From Gluconacetobacter johannae (GTDB taxonomy: Bacteria > Pseudomonadota > Alphaproteobacteria > Acetobacterales > Acetobacteraceae), in assembly GCF_014174305.1 (NCBI RefSeq), contig NZ_JABEQH010000007.1, forward strand, positions 62,001 through 126,000: 64,000 nt of DNA. Reading direction: 5' to 3'. The position numbers and the translations under genes were made by a program. Below the pieces are notes generated by a model, which saw nothing but the letters and a program-made list of their open reading frames with translations, did not search any database and was not told the DNA's origin. Positions 29,043-36,521 of the stretch are shown here, one piece after another (position 1 is the stretch's first letter; each line of letters opens with the position of its first letter).

Positions 29043-31505
29043 ATGCAAAAACGTAATAATTCCCGTCCGGATGCCGCCGCGTTCGTTCGGACATCGGGGG
29101 ATATGCGTCCCATCGGCCGCCGTCGCCGGCTGACGCTGGCAACGGCCCTGGGCGCGCTGGGGGCAACGGTTCTGGCGCCCCTGGCCAGCCAGGATGCCCG
29201 CGCGCAGGCCGCTCAGGACGGCAGCACACCCGGGGGGCGGCCGGTGCCGGGCCATGCCACCCACGCGCCGGTGCGGCACACGGCCGCCCGGCCCGCCCCC
29301 GCGCGTCGCGCGCCGGCCACCGAGTCCCGCACGGCCGAGACGTTTTCGGTCGTGGGATCGCACGAGACCTCGCACGGCATGGAACAGACCATCACGCGCA
29401 AGACGCTCGATCGCTTCGTGGCGGGGACCAGCCCGCTTCAGGTGCTGGGGGCGACGACGCCCGGCGTCAGCTTCGCCACGGCGGATGCGCTGGGCCTCGA
29501 TACCTATGCCAATTCCCTGTATATCCGCGGCTATAACCAAAGCCAGCTGGGCGTCACGCTGGACGGCATCCCCCTGGGCGACCAGGGATTCATCAACACC
29601 AACGGCCTGGATATCAACGAGGCCGTCACACCCGACAATATCGCGCGCATCGACATGTCGCAGGGCGGCGGCGCGCTGGATGTCGCGTCGACCGCGAATC
29701 TGGGGGGCGCCCTGCAATATTACACCCAGGACCCGCGGGACAGGCTGGGCGCCGACGTCTCGCAGACCTTCGGCAGCAACAGCACCTATCGCACCTTCGG
29801 GCGGTTCCACAGCGGCGTGCTGAATCGGACCGGCACGAAATTCATGGCGTCCTACGCGCGCACCGACGCGCAGAAATGGAAGGGCCATGGCAACCAGTAC
29901 GAGCAGCAGGCCAATTTCAAGTTCGTCCAGCCTCTGGGCGACCGGGGGCGGCTGACCGGATTTTTCGATTATTCTGAATTCAATCAGTATAACTATGGAA
30001 ACATCAGCCTGGAGATCAAACAGAAGCTGGGGTCGAGGACCGACTATTTCTACCCCGATTACAAGGGGGCCTACCTGGCCGCGCAGGGGATCTTCCCCGC
30101 CGGCTGGGACCAGGTGTCCAGCCCCACGGACATCGCGTACTACGACGCCGCACAGGACCAGAGGAACTATCTGACCGGGCTGAACGGCAATTACGATCTG
30201 ACGTCGCGGCTGCGGGTGAAAAGCGTGCTGTACGCGCAGGTATCGGGCGGAGATTACGAATTCACCAACCCGTACGTGTCGTCACCCAATGGCGCACCGA
30301 TGATCCAGCAGGCCGATCACCAGTGGTTCCGCCGCGTCGGCGGCACGCTGGCGCTGCAATACACGCTGGGCCATCACGACCTGGAATCCGGCGTCTGGTA
30401 CGAAAACAACGATTTCACCTATTCGCAGCGGCTGTACAGCCAGCCCCTGCTGGGCGAGGGCGCGCCGCGCAAGGGTACCGGCCCCTACGAGAATTCGTTC
30501 GCCACGCGCTATGGCGTGCAGATGAACACCAACGCCTTCCAGTACTATCTTCAGGATGCCTGGCACATCCTGCCCAACCTGCGCCTGCATGCCGGCTTCA
30601 AGTCGCTGCTGGTCACGACGGCGGGCGGCGCGTTCGAGAACAACGAGACCTATACCGGCCAGAGCGCGCTGCCCAGCGGCAGCCTGACGACGGCGGGCGC
30701 CTTCCTGCCGCATGTCAGCCTGAACTGGACGTTCCTGCGGCATCATGAACTGTTCTTCGACGTGTCGCGCGACATGCGCGCCTATTCCTATGGCGGATGG
30801 AATTCGCCGGTCGCCTGGGGCGTCGACAATCAGGCCATATTCTCGGACCTACGCAAGACGCTGAAGCCCGAAAGCACCTGGAACTACCTGGTCGGCTACC
30901 GCTACAACGCGAAATATGTCACCGGCGTGCTGAACCTGTATCATTCGGATTATTCGAACCGCCTGGCGCCGATCACCAGCGGCACGCTGGTCAATGCGAA
31001 CCAGACCTTCCTGAATGTCGGGTCGATGGCGATGTGGGGCGTCGATGCCGGCGTAACCGTCCGGCCGCTGCCGCACCTCGAGATCTTCAACAGCATCAGC
31101 TACAATCATTCGACCTACGGTCAGGGAATCTACAACGCCGGCACCTATTACGACCTGAAGGGCAAGATGGAGGTCAATTACCCCTCTGTCATGTACAAGT
31201 CGAACGTGGCCTATACCTATGGGAACGCGACGCTGAACTTCAACGTATATTACATGGGGCGGCGGTACCTGTCGTACATGAACGACACGTCGGTCGATCC
31301 CTACTGGAACGCGAACCTGACGGCATCGTACGATTTCAAGCATGTTCCGCACGTCGCGAACCTGAATTTCTCGCTTGGCATCTACAATCTGTTCAATCAG
31401 GAATATATCAGCTCGATCGGCGCCAACCCGATTTCGGGCGACCGCCAGTCCATGTTCGCAGGCGCGCCGCGCCAGTTCTTCGGAACGCTGCGCGCACGCT
31501 TCTGA
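29043..31505 (+). CDS. TonB-dependent outer-membrane receptor
   Basis: The 820-residue protein has an N-terminal signal region (LTLATALGALGATVLAPLA then ARAQA), a linker rich in Pro/Ala/His, a plug domain (GVSFATADALGLDTYANSLYIRG, DGIPLGDQGF, STANLGGALQYYTQ) and a long beta-barrel with aromatic-rich strands ending in Phe (FFGTLRARF). It imports a ligand using TonB energy. The pattern fits iron-complex or carbohydrate receptors; the ligand is unknown. It is divergent from an Lrp regulator and converges on the quinoprotein dehydrogenase gene. Confidence 0.93.
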   Translation: MQKRNNSRPDAAAFVRTSGDMRPIGRRRRLTLATALGALGATVLAPLASQDARAQAAQDGSTPGGRPVPGHATHAPVRHTAARPAPARRAPATESRTAETFSVVGSHETSHGMEQTITRKTLDRFVAGTSPLQVLGATTPGVSFATADALGLDTYANSLYIRGYNQSQLGVTLDGIPLGDQGFINTNGLDINEAVTPDNIARIDMSQGGGALDVASTANLGGALQYYTQDPRDRLGADVSQTFGSNSTYRTFGRFHSGVLNRTGTKFMASYARTDAQKWKGHGNQYEQQANFKFVQPLGDRGRLTGFFDYSEFNQYNYGNISLEIKQKLGSRTDYFYPDYKGAYLAAQGIFPAGWDQVSSPTDIAYYDAAQDQRNYLTGLNGNYDLTSRLRVKSVLYAQVSGGDYEFTNPYVSSPNGAPMIQQADHQWFRRVGGTLALQYTLGHHDLESGVWYENNDFTYSQRLYSQPLLGEGAPRKGTGPYENSFATRYGVQMNTNAFQYYLQDAWHILPNLRLHAGFKSLLVTTAGGAFENNETYTGQSALPSGSLTTAGAFLPHVSLNWTFLRHHELFFDVSRDMRAYSYGGWNSPVAWGVDNQAIFSDLRKTLKPESTWNYLVGYRYNAKYVTGVLNLYHSDYSNRLAPITSGTLVNANQTFLNVGSMAMWGVDAGVTVRPLPHLEIFNSISYNHSTYGQGIYNAGTYYDLKGKMEVNYPSVMYKSNVAYTYGNATLNFNVYYMGRRYLSYMNDTSVDPYWNANLTASYDFKHVPHVANLNFSLGIYNLFNQEYISSIGANPISGDRQSMFAGAPRQFFGTLRARF

Positions 31506-31515
31506 GGACGCTGCG

Positions 31516-31545
31516 CCGGGGCCGCCTACGGCGTGGCGGCCCCGG
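31516..31545. terminator. GC stem-loop between convergent genes
   Basis: An 11-bp perfect stem (CCGGGGCCGCC with GGCGGCCCCGG, loop of 8) lies just after the TonB receptor stop and across the end of the dehydrogenase gene. It lacks a T run, so its role as a terminator is uncertain. Confidence 0.4.
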
Positions 31546-32863
31546 TGACCCGCCAGATGGTATCGCCCACGTCGTCGGCGACCAGCAGCGCGCCTTTGCC
31601 GTCCAGGGCCAGCCCGACAGGGCGGCCGTGGACATGCTTCTGGTCGTCGGCCAGGAAGCCGGTCAGCACGTCCTGCGGCGGGCCGGAAGGACGGCCGTCG
31701 GTGAAGGGCACGTAGATCACGCGATAGCCGCTCTTGGGCCGGCGGTTCCATGATCCGTGCTGGGCGACGAACAGGCCGTGCCGCCAGGCGTCGGGCAGGC
31801 TGCTGGCGTAGGAAAAGGCGATGCCCAGCGACGCGGTATGCGGCCCCAGCGCGTAATCGGGCGCGATCGCCTGCGCGACCAGGTTGGGCCGGGGCGGCTG
31901 GACGCGGACATCGACATGCTGGCCATAATAGCTGTAGGGCCAGCCATAGAACGCGCCCTCGCGCACCGCCGTGATATAGTCGGGCACCAGGTCGCTGCCG
32001 ATTTCGTCGCGTTCGTTCACCGCCGTCCACAACGCGCCGGTCTGCGGTTCCCACGCCAGGCCGTTGGGATTGCGCAGTCCGGTGGCGAAGGGACGCAGCG
32101 TCCCGCCGGCGATGTCGTAGCGGTCGATCCGCGCGCGTCCTTCCTCGACCGCCATGCCCTGCTCGGCGACATTGCTGTTCGACCCCACGGTGACGTACAG
32201 CGCGGTGCCGTCGGGGCTGGCCAGGATGTTCTTGGTCCAGTGGTGGTTGTAGCCGGCCGGCAGGTCGATCAGCCTGGTCCCCGGATCGTCGATGCGGGTC
32301 TGCCCGTCATGATAGGGAAAGCGCATCAGCGCATTGGCGTTCGCGACGTACAGCCCGTCGCCGATCAGCGCCATGCCGAACGGCGAATACAGATGATCGA
32401 GAAAGACCGTGCGCTGGTCGGCGACGCCATCGCCGTCGGTATCGCGCAGCAGGGTGATGCGGTTCGGGCTCTTCTCGCCCGCGCCGACGGCCCCCATAAT
32501 CAGGCCGGCGACCCAGTTCTTGAAGGTCTGGATATCGGTGCCCGGCGAATTCGATTCCGCAACCAGGACGTCGCCATTGGGCAGTTTGTAAAGCCAGCGC
32601 GGATGGTCCAGGCCGGAGGCATACGCCCTGACCACCAGCCCGGCGGCGGCACGCGGGGCCTCGGCCCCCTTCCAGCCGATCGGGGTGGCGATATTGACCG
32701 TCGGCATGAACGTCTTGTTGGGCGGCGGCAGAACGGGGTGCGTGCCCGTCCCGGCCGCGACCGGCAGCGTCGCCTGTTCCGGCTCCAGCAACCCGTAGCA
32801 TCCGGCGGTCAGCGCCACGATGGCGGCCGCCCCGCCCAGCAGCCAGAGACGAGAATGTTTCAT
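31526..32863 (-). CDS. L-sorbosone dehydrogenase-type PQQ enzyme (lipoprotein)
   Basis: The 445-residue protein belongs to the soluble quinoprotein glucose/sorbosone dehydrogenase family, six-bladed propellers that oxidise aldoses or sorbosone with PQQ. It has a lipoprotein signal ([15 protein letters not shown]), so it is probably anchored in the periplasm. Family segments include [62 protein letters not shown] and GDTIWRVTG. Enzymes of this type occur in acetic acid bacteria as part of periplasmic sugar oxidation. Sorbosone as the substrate is family inference. Confidence 0.87.
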
Positions 32864-33075
32864 GTCGCGACCCCTGTCCCGCAGCCCGAACCGGGCCGGA
32901 TGGGGCGCGGCAGTACACGCGGCCCCGAAATAGAAGGACGCCGATCACACCCCAATTCACCCCGGCGTGCAAGCCGGGCGGGGCCGCCGGCACATTCCGA
33001 ATCGCAGGCGGCCACGAACGCCTCCTTGCGCTTCGCGCGAAGCTGAAACACTTGACGCAACGAACCCGAAAAAGG
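32864..33075. other. Intergenic region upstream of the dehydrogenase gene and of the structured RNA
   Basis: This 212-bp gap holds the presumed promoter of the minus-strand dehydrogenase gene and, at 33053-33058, a TTGACG hexamer that could be the -35 of a plus-strand promoter reading into the structured region. No good -10 was recognised. No gene seen. Confidence 0.4.
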
Positions 33076-33262
33076 CAGTCTGACCGGGCAATGTGCCAGA
33101 CCCGGGACAACGCCGACCGACGCCGACGCCGCAGCAATCGCGGCGGGTTCGTCGTGTCTGCCGGACTCCGGCCAGGCTGGTGAAGGGTAAAACCGTCACC
33201 TGAGCCACGGTTCGTTCGAGACACGCTTCACCCCCCGCGACACCCGTCGCGGGGGGTTTTTG
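33076..33262 (+). ncRNA. Candidate structured leader RNA or small RNA ending in an intrinsic terminator
   Basis: The plus strand folds into several helices. A closing stem CGTGTCT (33153-33159) with AGACACG (33219-33225) encloses GCCGG-act-CCGGC (33160-33172) and a hairpin with GGTGA/TCACC (33179-33183, 33196-33200) extended by GGC/GCC. Upstream are GCCGC/GCGGC (33128-33144) and GTCT/AGAC around GGCA/TGCC (33078-33101). Competing pairings exist (CCGGG/CCCGG; ACCGT/ACGGT). It ends in a terminator 20 nt before an ATG. It does not match a riboswitch consensus I know. Confidence 0.5.
33231..33261 (+). terminator. Intrinsic terminator just upstream of the NTF2-GNAT gene
   Basis: An 11-bp perfect stem (CCCCCCGCGAC with GTCGCGGGGGG, loop of 4) is followed by TTTTT. 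It lies 20 nt before the coding start at 33281, so it either ends a small RNA or controls readthrough into the gene. Confidence 0.9.
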
Positions 33263-33280
33263 CATTTGGAGAGACACATC

Positions 33281-34123
33281 ATGGATATCAGCGGCATCCC
33301 CGACATCGCCCGTCCGGTGCAGAAACAGCTCGACGCCTACAACGCGCGCGATATCGACGCCTTCATGCGATACTGGGCCGAGGACTGCCGGTATTACGAA
33401 TTTCCCGACCGCCTGCTGGCCCGCGGCGCAGCCGAAATCCGCGCACGCCACATGGCCCGGTTTCAGGAGCCGAACCTGCACGGGCGGCTGGTCAACCGCA
33501 TGGTCGTCGCCGACATGGTGGTCGATCACGAGACGGTCACGCGCACCTTCCCCGACGGCGCCGGCGAAATCGACGTCGTGGCCATCTACGAGGTGAAAAA
33601 CGGCGTGATCGCCCGAGCCTGGTTCAAGATCGGGCCGCCACGGCTGTTGACCGACGCGGTCCTCCGGCGCGCCCTTCCGTCCGACGCCGCCGCCATCCGG
33701 GACCTGACGCACGCGGCCTATGCCAAATGGGTTCCCGTCATCGGCCGCGCGCCCAAACCGATGACGGCCGACTATCACGCCAGGGCGCGGGACCACATCA
33801 TCGACCTGCTGCACGCCGAAGGCCGCCTGGCCGCATTGATCGAGATGGTTCCCCAAACCGACCATCTCCTGATCGAGAACGTGGCCGTCCTGCCGGCATT
33901 CCAGGGACGTGGATACGGGCGCCGGTTGCTGGCGCACGCCGAAGCGGTTGCCGCCACGCGCGGCCTGGGCGAGGTCCGCCTCTACACCAACAGGCTTTTT
34001 GCCGAAAACATCGCCCTCTATGCCCGGCTGGGCTATCGCGTGGACCGCGAGGAACCCTTCATGGGCGGCTTTACCGTCTACATGAGCAAGCCGCTCCATG
34101 AGGCGCCCCCGGCTTCGGGTTGA
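33281..34123 (+). CDS. NTF2/SnoaL-like domain fused to a GNAT acetyltransferase
   Basis: The 280-residue protein has two parts. Residues 1-125 are an NTF2-like fold of the SnoaL type (QKQLDAYNARDIDAFMRYWAEDCRYYEFPDRLLARGAAEIRARH, VVAIYEVKNGVIARAWF). From about residue 130 there is a GNAT N-acetyltransferase (LRRALPSDAAAIRDLTHAAY, with acetyl-CoA loop FQGRGYGRRLLAHAE, then RLYTNRLFAENIALYARLGYR). ATG 33281 follows GGAG by 9 nt. Each half exists alone in many bacteria; substrate unknown. It stands alone behind a terminator and a structured leader. Confidence 0.85.
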   Translation: MDISGIPDIARPVQKQLDAYNARDIDAFMRYWAEDCRYYEFPDRLLARGAAEIRARHMARFQEPNLHGRLVNRMVVADMVVDHETVTRTFPDGAGEIDVVAIYEVKNGVIARAWFKIGPPRLLTDAVLRRALPSDAAAIRDLTHAAYAKWVPVIGRAPKPMTADYHARARDHIIDLLHAEGRLAALIEMVPQTDHLLIENVAVLPAFQGRGYGRRLLAHAEAVAATRGLGEVRLYTNRLFAENIALYARLGYRVDREEPFMGGFTVYMSKPLHEAPPASG

Positions 34124-34136
34124 CGCCTTCCGGGCC

Positions 34137-36521
34137 TCAGAACTCCGCCGTCAGGCTGAGGCCGACCGTCGCCGGCGGGGCCGAGTTGATGACCAGCGGC
34201 TGGACCGAGTTCAGGCGGCCCGAAACGCGGGTCTGCCGGTTCAGGATATTGTTGGCATAGATCTGCGCGCTGTAGCGTCCGATCTTGGTCCCGACATTGA
34301 GGTTGGCCAGGAACCAGCCCCCGATATAGGTATAGTTCGGGCTGGCGCGGTTGAACGCCGTGGTGCGGCCGCTTTGATAGGCGACATCGCCGCGCACCCA
34401 GCTTGGCAGGCCCAGCACGTCGAAGCTGTAGGTCGCGTTCGCGTTCAGGGTCCAGCGGGGCACGTAGGGCAGGTCGTCGCCAGACTGCGTCTGGTTGACC
34501 GGCAGGGGCTGGTAGGGCTGCCTTCCGACCAGATGAGCGTCGGTGTAGTTGACGCCCATCCCCAGTTGCAGCGGGCGGATGGGCCGTACCGCCACTTCGG
34601 CCTCAACCCCCGTGGCGGTCGCCGAGCCCGCATTGGTGATGAAATCGAACGCGCCCGACGGGTCGGTGCCCTGCTGCTGGATGTTCGACCAGTTCATGCG
34701 GTAGACCGCGCCGTTGAACGTCAGGCGGTTGTTCAGCCACCCGGTCTTCCAGCCGAATTCGTAATCCCACACCGTGTCGGGGGCGTACGGGGCCGGGGTG
34801 GTGACGGTGAAGCCGACCGGCAGGTTCGGCCCGCCGATCCGGTAGCCTTCCGCCGCCTGGACATAGACCATGGCGTGCGGCGTGATGTCATACGACAGCA
34901 GCGCCTTGCCGGTGGCCGATGTCTCGTTCGACGACGAGCCCGGATAGAAGGTCGGGATGGCGTTCTTCTCGCCGAACGGCATGATGGCCAGCGAGGTCAG
35001 GCTGCGGTCGGCGGTAAAGACCCGCACGCCGCCAGTCAGTTTCAGGTTCTTCAGGATCGGGTACGTGGCCTCGCCGAAGCCCGCGATCTGTTCCGTCCGA
35101 TCCCAGTTGGCGCGGGCGAACATGGTGGTCGGCGCGTAGCCGTTGGAATCGTAGTCGAAGAACCCCGCCGAATCCACGCCACCGTAATAGAGCTGGAACG
35201 TGTTTTTCCGGATCTGGTAGAAGCTGCCGACCGTCCACTGGATTTTGCTCTGCGCCGGTGAGGACAGGCGCACCTCGGCCGTCCAGGCGCTCACCCGCTG
35301 GCGGTCGTCCACCGCGTTGATCTGGCCGGCGGCCAGGCGCTGCTGGAACACGTCCAGCGGATAGCAGCTCGCGAAATCACCACTGCTGCAATCGACGCCG
35401 TAATTGAACGACGTGTCATGGGTATAATGCATCTTGCGCTGCTGCCACGACGCGATGGCCGTCAGCGTCGCCCAGGACATGCGATAGGCCGAAATCAGGT
35501 TATAGGCCTGGAATTCGTCGCGCATCGGCTGGCGCACGAAGCTGGCCGCCGCCCATTTGCTGTGCGCCACGCTGTCGAAGATGGGGTTGAGGTTCGACAG
35601 GTCGTTGGTGTTCGCGTTCTGGTAATAGCCGATGAAATCGATCGTCCAGTTGTCCATCGGGCGATAGCGGATGTTCAGGCGGCCGCCGTAATCGTCGGTG
35701 CTGTTGGTGCCGTTCTGCTGCAGGTAATATTGCTTGATCCAGCCGGCATTGCTGTCGCGATAGGCGCTGAGGCGGACCGACAGCTTGTCCTTGACGATGG
35801 GGACATTGACGGTGCCGCTCTGCGAATTGTTGAAACCGCCGGTGGCGTAGGTCGATATCGAACTGTTCACCGTGCCGCCCAGCTTGGTCATGTTCGGCCG
35901 TTCCGAGATGATGCGGATGGTGCCGCCCTCCGACCCCGATCCGTACAGCGTGCCCTGTGGGCCCTTCAGGACCTCGACCCGCTGCATGTCCCACAATTTC
36001 ACGTCCGGCTGCGCGGACCCGGAATCGGTGTTTTCCCCGGTGAAGCCGGCGATGGGGATTTCGTCCAGATACAGCCCGACCTGCGGTTCGCCCGCCGCCG
36101 TCAGGTTGCGGATGGCATAGCGTTTCTGCCCCGGCCCCTGGTCCTGCATGCTCAGGCCCGGAACCTGGATGAAGTAATCGGCGATCGTCTGGGCATGGGT
36201 CTGCTGCAACGTCTTGGCGCTGATGGCGGTGATGGCCATGGGCGTGTGCTGGACGTCCGTGCTGCGTCGCGTGGCGGACACCGTAACCTGTTCTATTCCG
36301 TCATTTTCCTTTTGAGCAGACGATTTTTTGGAAACAACGCGCTTGGCGTCCTTCGTGCCGGTGGTTCCGGCGCCGGCCGTGGGGGCCGCGTCCGCCTGGG
36401 GGGGCGTGGTCCCGGCCGCCCCAGCCGCCAGCGCGGGGGACATCAGGAACACCGGAGACACCGTCAGCAACAAGGCAAGCCGCAATCCGAAACCACGTGA
36501 GCCATTTCCGATGGGGGGCAT
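34137..36521 (-). CDS. TonB-dependent receptor of the catabolic island
   Basis: The 794-residue outer-membrane receptor has a signal peptide (LRLALLLTVSPVFLMSPALAAG), a TonB-box-like start of the mature part (GIEQVTVSATRR), a plug (VPGLSMQDQGPGQKRYAIRNL, EVLKGPQGTLYGSGSEGGTIRI) and a barrel ending in Phe (VGLSLTAEF). The plug sequence is of the catabolite-uptake type common in sphingomonads and acetic acid bacteria rather than a classic siderophore receptor. ATG 36521 follows AAGGA by 8 nt. It likely brings in the substrate for the genes at 36.9-47 kb (inference from proximity). Confidence 0.9.
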   Translation of the reverse strand: MPPIGNGSRGFGLRLALLLTVSPVFLMSPALAAGAAGTTPPQADAAPTAGAGTTGTKDAKRVVSKKSSAQKENDGIEQVTVSATRRSTDVQHTPMAITAISAKTLQQTHAQTIADYFIQVPGLSMQDQGPGQKRYAIRNLTAAGEPQVGLYLDEIPIAGFTGENTDSGSAQPDVKLWDMQRVEVLKGPQGTLYGSGSEGGTIRIISERPNMTKLGGTVNSSISTYATGGFNNSQSGTVNVPIVKDKLSVRLSAYRDSNAGWIKQYYLQQNGTNSTDDYGGRLNIRYRPMDNWTIDFIGYYQNANTNDLSNLNPIFDSVAHSKWAAASFVRQPMRDEFQAYNLISAYRMSWATLTAIASWQQRKMHYTHDTSFNYGVDCSSGDFASCYPLDVFQQRLAAGQINAVDDRQRVSAWTAEVRLSSPAQSKIQWTVGSFYQIRKNTFQLYYGGVDSAGFFDYDSNGYAPTTMFARANWDRTEQIAGFGEATYPILKNLKLTGGVRVFTADRSLTSLAIMPFGEKNAIPTFYPGSSSNETSATGKALLSYDITPHAMVYVQAAEGYRIGGPNLPVGFTVTTPAPYAPDTVWDYEFGWKTGWLNNRLTFNGAVYRMNWSNIQQQGTDPSGAFDFITNAGSATATGVEAEVAVRPIRPLQLGMGVNYTDAHLVGRQPYQPLPVNQTQSGDDLPYVPRWTLNANATYSFDVLGLPSWVRGDVAYQSGRTTAFNRASPNYTYIGGWFLANLNVGTKIGRYSAQIYANNILNRQTRVSGRLNSVQPLVINSAPPATVGLSLTAEF

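Follow-up and report, generated by a model that had tools for sequence, protein, structure and literature searches.

The window, i.e., the whole stretch of 64,000 nucleotides of Gluconacetobacter johannae DNA analyzed here, carries a gene whose product joins a SnoaL/NTF2-like domain (residues 13–112) to a GNAT acetyltransferase part (approximately residues 125–270). An initial annotation, made from the sequence alone, had described this gene as NTF2-GNAT, an identity confirmed by the Pfam matches to SnoaL_2 (7.2e-13) and Acetyltransf_1 (1.3e-13); the nearest solved chain for the SnoaL half is 2k54 (Atu0742). Two TonB-dependent receptor genes lie on either side (29043–31505, forward strand, and 34137–36521, reverse strand), and a glucose/sorbosone-dehydrogenase-like gene (31526–32863, reverse strand) is divergent from the candidate attenuator described below. 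The features recognized upstream of the SnoaL-GNAT gene are collected in Table 1.

Table 1. Features of the candidate attenuator and its downstream gene (positions refer to the window).
Feature	Position	Strand	Evidence
Predicted promoter: −35 TTGACG (33052–33057), 18-nt spacer, −10-like CAGTCT (33076–33081)	33052–33081	+	Conserved TTGAC spacing
Leader ORF, 30 codons plus TGA, predicted peptide MCQTRDNADRRRRRSNRGGFVVSAGLRPGW	33091–33183	+	Sequence; start, Arg run and stop recur in related leaders
Putative arginine sensor, a run of five Arg codons (CGA CGC CGA CGC CGC)	33118–33132	+	Arg run in related leaders
1:2 hairpin over the Arg codons, 33127–33132 with 33140–33145	33127–33145	+	12 class A sequences
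Region 2, antiterminator 5′ strand	33139–33162	+	RNAalifold consensus, pair counts, stalled-ribosome fold
Predicted middle hairpin, enclosed by the antiterminator and overlapping the leader stop	33175–33206	+	MFE and stalled fold
Region 3, antiterminator 3′ strand, which shares sequence with the 5′ arm of the terminator	33219–33240	+	Stalled fold, RNAalifold, pair counts
Intrinsic terminator ACCCCCCGCGAC-ACCC-GUCGCGGGGGGU plus U tract	33230–33261	+	Scan, conservation, covariation
Shine-Dalgarno-like GGAGA of the structural gene	33268–33272	+	Sequence
Putatively regulated gene, SnoaL/NTF2-like domain fused to GNAT acetyltransferase, 280 aa	33281–34123	+	Pfam

The folding energy of the region 33053–33281 is −106.5 kcal/mol, compared with an average of −86.7 for shuffled versions (z = −4.24), and none of 200 shuffles is as good, in agreement with the highly structured RNA that had been proposed in front of the gene. 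The GC-rich terminator expected about 20 nt before the coding start is indeed present: its hairpin (33230–33257) has 12 pairs, 10 of them G-C, is followed by a T run, and the element ends approximately 20 nt upstream of the ATG at 33281. Since the terminator scan found two sites over 2 kb and shuffled sequences gave 1.4 on average, a single match is not significant alone, and conservation and covariation constitute the stronger evidence for the terminator. Competing pairings before it had also been foreseen and were recovered, helix 33153–33225 being the antiterminator core, in which CGUGUCU (33153–33159) pairs with AGACACG (33219–33225), and helix 33128–33144 being the 1:2 hairpin. Besides AGACACG, region 3 comprises ACCC (33230–33233) and CCGCGA (33235–33240). 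The further 5′ helix of the initial annotation (33054–33067 with 33145–33158) was put aside: it lies in the −35 region of the predicted promoter, upstream of the likely transcript start, and is probably incidental, being still possible by eye in two near-identical congeners and having no counterpart in two other loci (L002 and L168).

A leader ORF with five arginine codons, closing with the stop codon at 33181–33183, is the key feature and had been missed in the initial annotation. The window holds 39 runs of five arginine codons on its two strands, and that of the leader is the only one that has a start codon upstream and is followed by a stop codon within 180 nt and by a terminator; in 20 random windows generated with a Markov-3 model, one of 674 such runs had start, stop and terminator. 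In the 38 leaders compiled from related loci and the window (two later ones, from a Roseomonas mucosa plasmid and from genome G240, are outside the counts) the longest arginine run comprises four or five codons in 33 cases and two or three in the other five. The 166 codons of these runs are CGC (90), CGA (65) and CGT (11), with CGG, AGA and AGG at 0/166, while a comparison set of 148 arginine codons from four window genes contains 41 CGG and three CGA; the run count is biased, as many leaders came from a search for the exact pattern CCGACGCCGACGCCGC, with the leaders found through proteins in agreement, and the codon choice is also partly forced by the 1:2 hairpin. CGA, CGC and CGT are all decoded by a single inosine-bearing tRNA-Arg, and the five codons of the window leader are probably read by one tRNA. 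CGA, rare in the four window genes (3/148), is the first codon of the run in 37 of the 38 compiled leaders, and slow decoding at this codon may fix the position of a stall.

Outside the run, the peptide shows no synonymous excess in class A (0.29 vs. 0.27 expected, six leaders; the sequence classes are defined below), whereas class B has a slight excess (0.37 vs. 0.28 expected, ten leaders). Because of this little synonymous excess, the case for translation of the leader rests on the architecture of the ORF together with the arginine run, and conservation of the class A leader as a protein found no support beyond the run in the synonymous-change test. Sensing of cysteine, considered on account of an MC start in some class A leaders and of a Cys beside the run in class B, was rejected, as Cys is not kept across the classes.

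Upstream of the leader start codon, a TTGAC box is found at 34–39 nt in 37 of the 38 leaders, the exception being G017. As this is the usual distance between a −35 box and the transcription start, the leader mRNA is probably leaderless, with the start codon located at, or adjoining, the predicted start of the transcript. A sigma-70 scan of 32500–34500 returned no promoter-like site, missing also the promoter proposed here.

All 38 leaders, which fall into three sequence classes, have a T run preceded by a hairpin at least as stable as −13.6 kcal/mol. Class A (n = 13) is followed by SnoaL or SnoaL-GNAT genes, whereas class B (n = 21) is followed by argC in 16 cases (nine obtained via protein search and seven assigned via the first residues of the downstream protein), by GNAT-argC and SnoaL-argC in one case each, and by GNAT in three. 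The arginine biosynthesis gene argC hence lies within the downstream unit of 18 of the 38 leaders, and in two of these 18 units a relative of the window gene is placed between leader and argC, namely a GNAT gene in G024 (67% identical to the GNAT half of the window protein) and a SnoaL gene in Neoroseomonas oryzicola. Several of the leaders found by pattern precede MSIRVGIVGISGFGG... proteins, one of which is ArgC according to TIGR01850 (281.2 bits, cut-off 233.6). Class C (n = 4; L129, L153, L144, and L253) comprises arginine-rich leaders that stand in front of GNAT genes and whose terminator differs from those of A and B, and suggests separate origins or a fast drift of one logic. In G001 (L128) and G017 (L124) the leader is intact and the SnoaL frame ends after 29 and 68 residues, respectively, the SnoaL gene being broken or cut short in both. 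As to the two later leaders, the first precedes an NTF2-family gene (L286:2501-2678) on the Roseomonas mucosa plasmid, which was typed as non-mobilizable and carries genes annotated as DotC, DotD/TraH and TadA near the leader, and the second is another class B leader of G240 (L287) in front of a GNAT gene.

These leaders were collected through several routes. A DNA search of 150 genomes of the family gave matches in 31, with clear copies in G057 (79% identity), G017 (74%), and G003 (71%), each upstream of an NTF2-type gene; two near-identical congeners also carry the leader. Three weaker matches of this search, L008, L023, and L026, also proved to be leaders, and the other loci among L002–L030 did not. 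The pattern search, which combined the arginine-codon core with a returning GCGG, matched 36 of 397 family genomes and yielded 18 distinct places with a leader and terminator, the rest not being leaders; six extra places that were fetched included one leader (L287 of G240). With stricter filters (search R1, E ≤ 1e-3) 29 of 299 genomes were matched, seven of them at E < 1e-20. Among the weaker matches, L253, L255, L256, and L260 are leaders, L251, L257, L264, and L272 are leaders already known from the pattern search, and 14 others showed no arginine-run leader with terminator. The place L262, within L161, has a terminator-like hairpin before an NTF2 gene, with no arginine run noticed. Within the genus, search R1 matched 7 of 14 genomes, three matches being strong and real and four weak and not leaders. 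Search R2, run with the class B model alone on 289 genomes of the taxonomic class, returned eight places in seven genomes, of which the one strong match is real, a leader before argC in G673, which belongs to a family other than that of the window (1/289); the remaining places are no leaders.

Protein queries led to the same element. ArgC was matched at E ≤ 1e-40 in 13 of 150 family genomes, and, one locus beginning at a contig end, 10 of the remaining 12 have both leader and terminator ahead of argC or of the operon that contains it; the two argC genes with no leader are those of G007, where an ORF with RRRR has no terminator, and of G123. A query with the SnoaL-GNAT alignment over species genomes gave 476 relatives, the best 80 of which were examined; 10 of these 80 carry the leader (L165–L168, L170–L172, L175, L220, and L235), eight recognized by script and two (L171 and L235) by eye. 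Leader-bearing loci among the best 80 belong to Gluconacetobacter, Roseomonas, Neoroseomonas, Acidisphaera, Stella, and metagenome bins, and the script found no leader within 450 nt in the loci of Rhizobium, Agrobacterium, Burkholderia and similar bacteria. L209, flagged by the script for a 69-aa ORF and a weak hairpin far upstream, was not counted as a leader. Where both the SnoaL and the GNAT half were matched in these 80, the leader is present at 7 of 10 loci and absent from L169, L183, and L191. On the contig of L169, which is shared with G018, the region L169:2200-2500 shows, by eye, an imperfect terminator-like hairpin and no arginine run before a 64% identical SnoaL-GNAT gene, and looks like an attenuator that has decayed or been lost.

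For an alignment that took in 12 leaders of class A (13 in all), began with region 2 and stopped after the terminator 5′ arm, omitting the 3′ arm, RNAalifold returned the antiterminator unprompted as its consensus. In this alignment, 9 of the 19 antiterminator pairs changed on both sides against 4.3 in shuffled alignments (1/500), and 16 cells carried double changes against 5.6 (0/500), bearing in mind that relatedness alone can make sequences beat shuffles without any structure. Paired cells amounted to 89.7%, against 35–51% in slid controls, a comparison that favors the antiterminator since it was counted on the sequences from which it was derived. Roseomonas rosea and the plasmid copy, the latter outside the alignment, both show the change of GCGGCGG to GCGGAGG together with that of CCCCCGC to CCTCCGC. 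The terminator and the 1:2 hairpin of class A, taken as one set, were paired in 97.5% of cells with eight double-change cells against 1.9 shuffled (0/500), all of them in the terminator, which by itself was paired in 97.0% of cells with double changes at three pairs; the 1:2 hairpin (98.6% of cells, 12 sequences) showed G-U changes only and no double change. Of the two helices that the initial annotation had singled out for covariation, 33153–33225 does covary in the 12 class A sequences, while 33128–33144 is kept but offers no double changes. In class B the elements are nearly invariant: terminator and 1:2 hairpin were 96.9% paired with weak covariation, the antiterminator was 99.2% paired with no covariation, and the consensus fold had a local hairpin in place of the antiterminator.

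A stalled ribosome was simulated by blocking the first 20 nt of each segment in an RNA that stops with the terminator 5′ arm; the block reaches the second arginine codon plus 11 in 29 of 30 leaders, the segment of GC11 starting elsewhere. Under this condition the 5′ arm of the terminator paired with region 2 in all 12 class A leaders (14–25 pairs) and in 17 of the 18 of class B with at least 15 pairs, G253 having 5. In the ribosome-free fold the antiterminator (at least 15 pairs) still formed in 9 of 12 class A leaders, and termination must therefore depend on the passage of the ribosome or on kinetics. When each sequence was taken singly, the region 2–region 3 duplex outdid shuffles at p ≤ 0.05 in no more than 7 of the 12 class A leaders and 6 of the 18 of class B.

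The leader ORF with its arginine run, the promoter spacing, the covarying antiterminator and terminator and the recurrence of the same layout before argC point to attenuation of transcription by the translating ribosome, with charged tRNA-Arg as the signal for arginine, a reading that, judged from sequence comparison, we consider very likely. Transcription would start at, or next to, the leader AUG at 33091, and a ribosome would load on the leaderless ORF. When arginine is short, the ribosome would stall on CGA CGC CGA CGC CGC and cover region 1, freeing region 2 to pair with region 3; as the latter holds the 5′ arm of the terminator, no terminator would form and RNA polymerase would enter the SnoaL-GNAT gene, which is thus probably switched on at arginine shortage. 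When arginine is plentiful, the ribosome would reach the stop codon, the 1:2 hairpin would re-form behind it, and, with region 3 free, the terminator would end transcription as an RNA of approximately 170 nt. The run of codons for one amino acid in a short ORF, the intrinsic terminator and the antiterminator favored by a stall are all found in the window, and a downstream gene that makes the sensed amino acid is found with argC in the related loci; the SnoaL-GNAT gene of the window is tied to arginine synthesis through guilt by association, and its product may act in arginine metabolism. The initial annotation had read the competing pairings as the layout of a riboswitch or an attenuator, and it is the attenuator that fits best, with terminator and antiterminator covarying across loci. 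Counting against it are the argC and SnoaL-GNAT genes that lack the leader, the class B antiterminator, which does not covary, the modest results for single duplexes, and the class A peptide, which shows no synonymous excess beyond its arginine run.

The arginine run could also act through the nascent chain, by stalling of polyarginine or as a sensor of general translation stress or antibiotics with GNAT as its target, instead of reporting on the arginine supply. Ribosomes slow down on CGA codons and when the nascent chain is polybasic, the target in the window is indeed a GNAT, and the run is the sole conserved part of the peptide as a protein; nonetheless, the leader stands directly before argC in 16 of the 38 cases and before an argC-containing unit in two more, as fits a response to arginine supply, and the class A peptide is not conserved as a protein outside the run, so that we regard this explanation as improbable. 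A small-molecule riboswitch, binding for instance arginine or an acetylated intermediate, with an aptamer that happens to contain a short ORF, would share with the preferred attenuator the structured 5′ RNA and the mutually exclusive terminator and antiterminator. Rfam covariance models, however, gave chance-level matches only, both in the window region (SNORA77, 20.4 bits of the 42 required, with cmscan) and in six related loci (toga_FSE, 25.6 of 40, in L172 and outside the leader). Moreover, the interval between regions 2 and 3 is by eye the least conserved part of both alignments, with no aptamer-like core, and what is conserved is the arginine run in an open leader frame at a nearly fixed distance from TTGAC; a riboswitch is for these reasons not favored and appears very unlikely. 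An ordinary promoter and intrinsic terminator making an independent small RNA, with the gene relying on another promoter, would suit a strong terminator placed some 20 nt upstream of the gene and the capacity of attenuators to release short RNAs able to act in trans, as described for rnTrpL in passages of PMC7298713, but is hardly credible given the mere 19 nt between terminator and gene, the lack of a promoter-like site in the sigma-70 scan (which also missed the proposed promoter), the occurrence of the element before the same few gene types across many genera, and the antiterminator covariation that it leaves unexplained. Within the attenuator reading, the small RNA that the initial annotation offered as its alternative is compatible as a by-product, i.e., the short terminated RNA expected when arginine is plentiful.

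Leader-peptide attenuation is known for the biosynthesis of Trp, His, Leu, Thr, Ile/Val, and Phe, and the element of the window looks like an arginine member of this known mechanism. What is new is its specificity for arginine, the connection that it makes between argC and the SnoaL and GNAT genes, and its spread among gene contexts. We tentatively suggest, as a possibility short of an even chance, that Acetobacteraceae and some relatives have an arginine regulon controlled by one attenuator design in three sequence classes, before argC and SnoaL/GNAT genes, that the SnoaL-GNAT protein is an unrecognised enzyme of the arginine pathway, acting for instance on an N-acetylated intermediate, and that arginine joins the amino acids whose biosynthesis is attenuated. 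If true, this would add arginine to the leader-peptide attenuation of a biosynthetic gene, in a compact design with a leaderless leader, five arginine codons and overlapping hairpins. It would also give a physiological context to the little-studied SnoaL-GNAT protein, for which a role in arginine metabolism is a lead, and the leader could serve as a marker with which to find genes under arginine control in acetic acid bacteria and the relatives of Roseomonas.

The amino-acid attenuators of Proteobacteria include those of his, thr, phe, leu, and ilv. As in the window leader, the regulatory codons of such attenuators are, in the passages of PMC1183508 and PMC1262725 concerned, cognate to the amino acid of the pathway; those of PMC1262725 report that histidine, threonine and phenylalanine are under attenuator control in other species, give T-boxes for tyrosine and arginine, and name no arginine attenuator. 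Among the literature matches listed, from a search mainly of open literature, there was no leader-peptide attenuator of arginine biosynthesis. Pseudomonas carA is similar in that it belongs to the arginine pathway and has been reported to have a leader peptide and perhaps to be attenuated, but the relevant part of PMC4997734 attributes the attenuation to pyrimidines, with arginine acting at the transcriptional level, and states that in P. syringae no start codon of the carA leader peptide was found. The nearest arginine case among the matches listed is orf34 of Salmonella speF, where, according to excerpts of PMC6386406, two consecutive arginine codons lie in an upstream ORF and, when arginine is low, a pausing ribosome leads the mRNA into an alternative structure. 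There, however, an ornithine decarboxylase is controlled via Rho, masking of the ribosome binding site and RNase G, with no intrinsic terminator and a target that is not an arginine-biosynthesis gene, and the likeness to the window leader is one of logic. The leader trpL/rnTrpL of Sinorhizobium meliloti, also an alphaproteobacterium, differs in sensing tryptophan with a 14-aa peptide before trpE(G), where the window leader would sense arginine with a 30-aa peptide and related leaders precede SnoaL-GNAT or argC genes. As portrayed in the sections of PMC7298713 and PMC10117765 on this leader, it nonetheless shares with the element of the window the consecutive regulatory codons in a leader ORF, the mutually exclusive antiterminator and terminator, and a transcript that begins with the leader AUG, a start that is predicted for the window leader.
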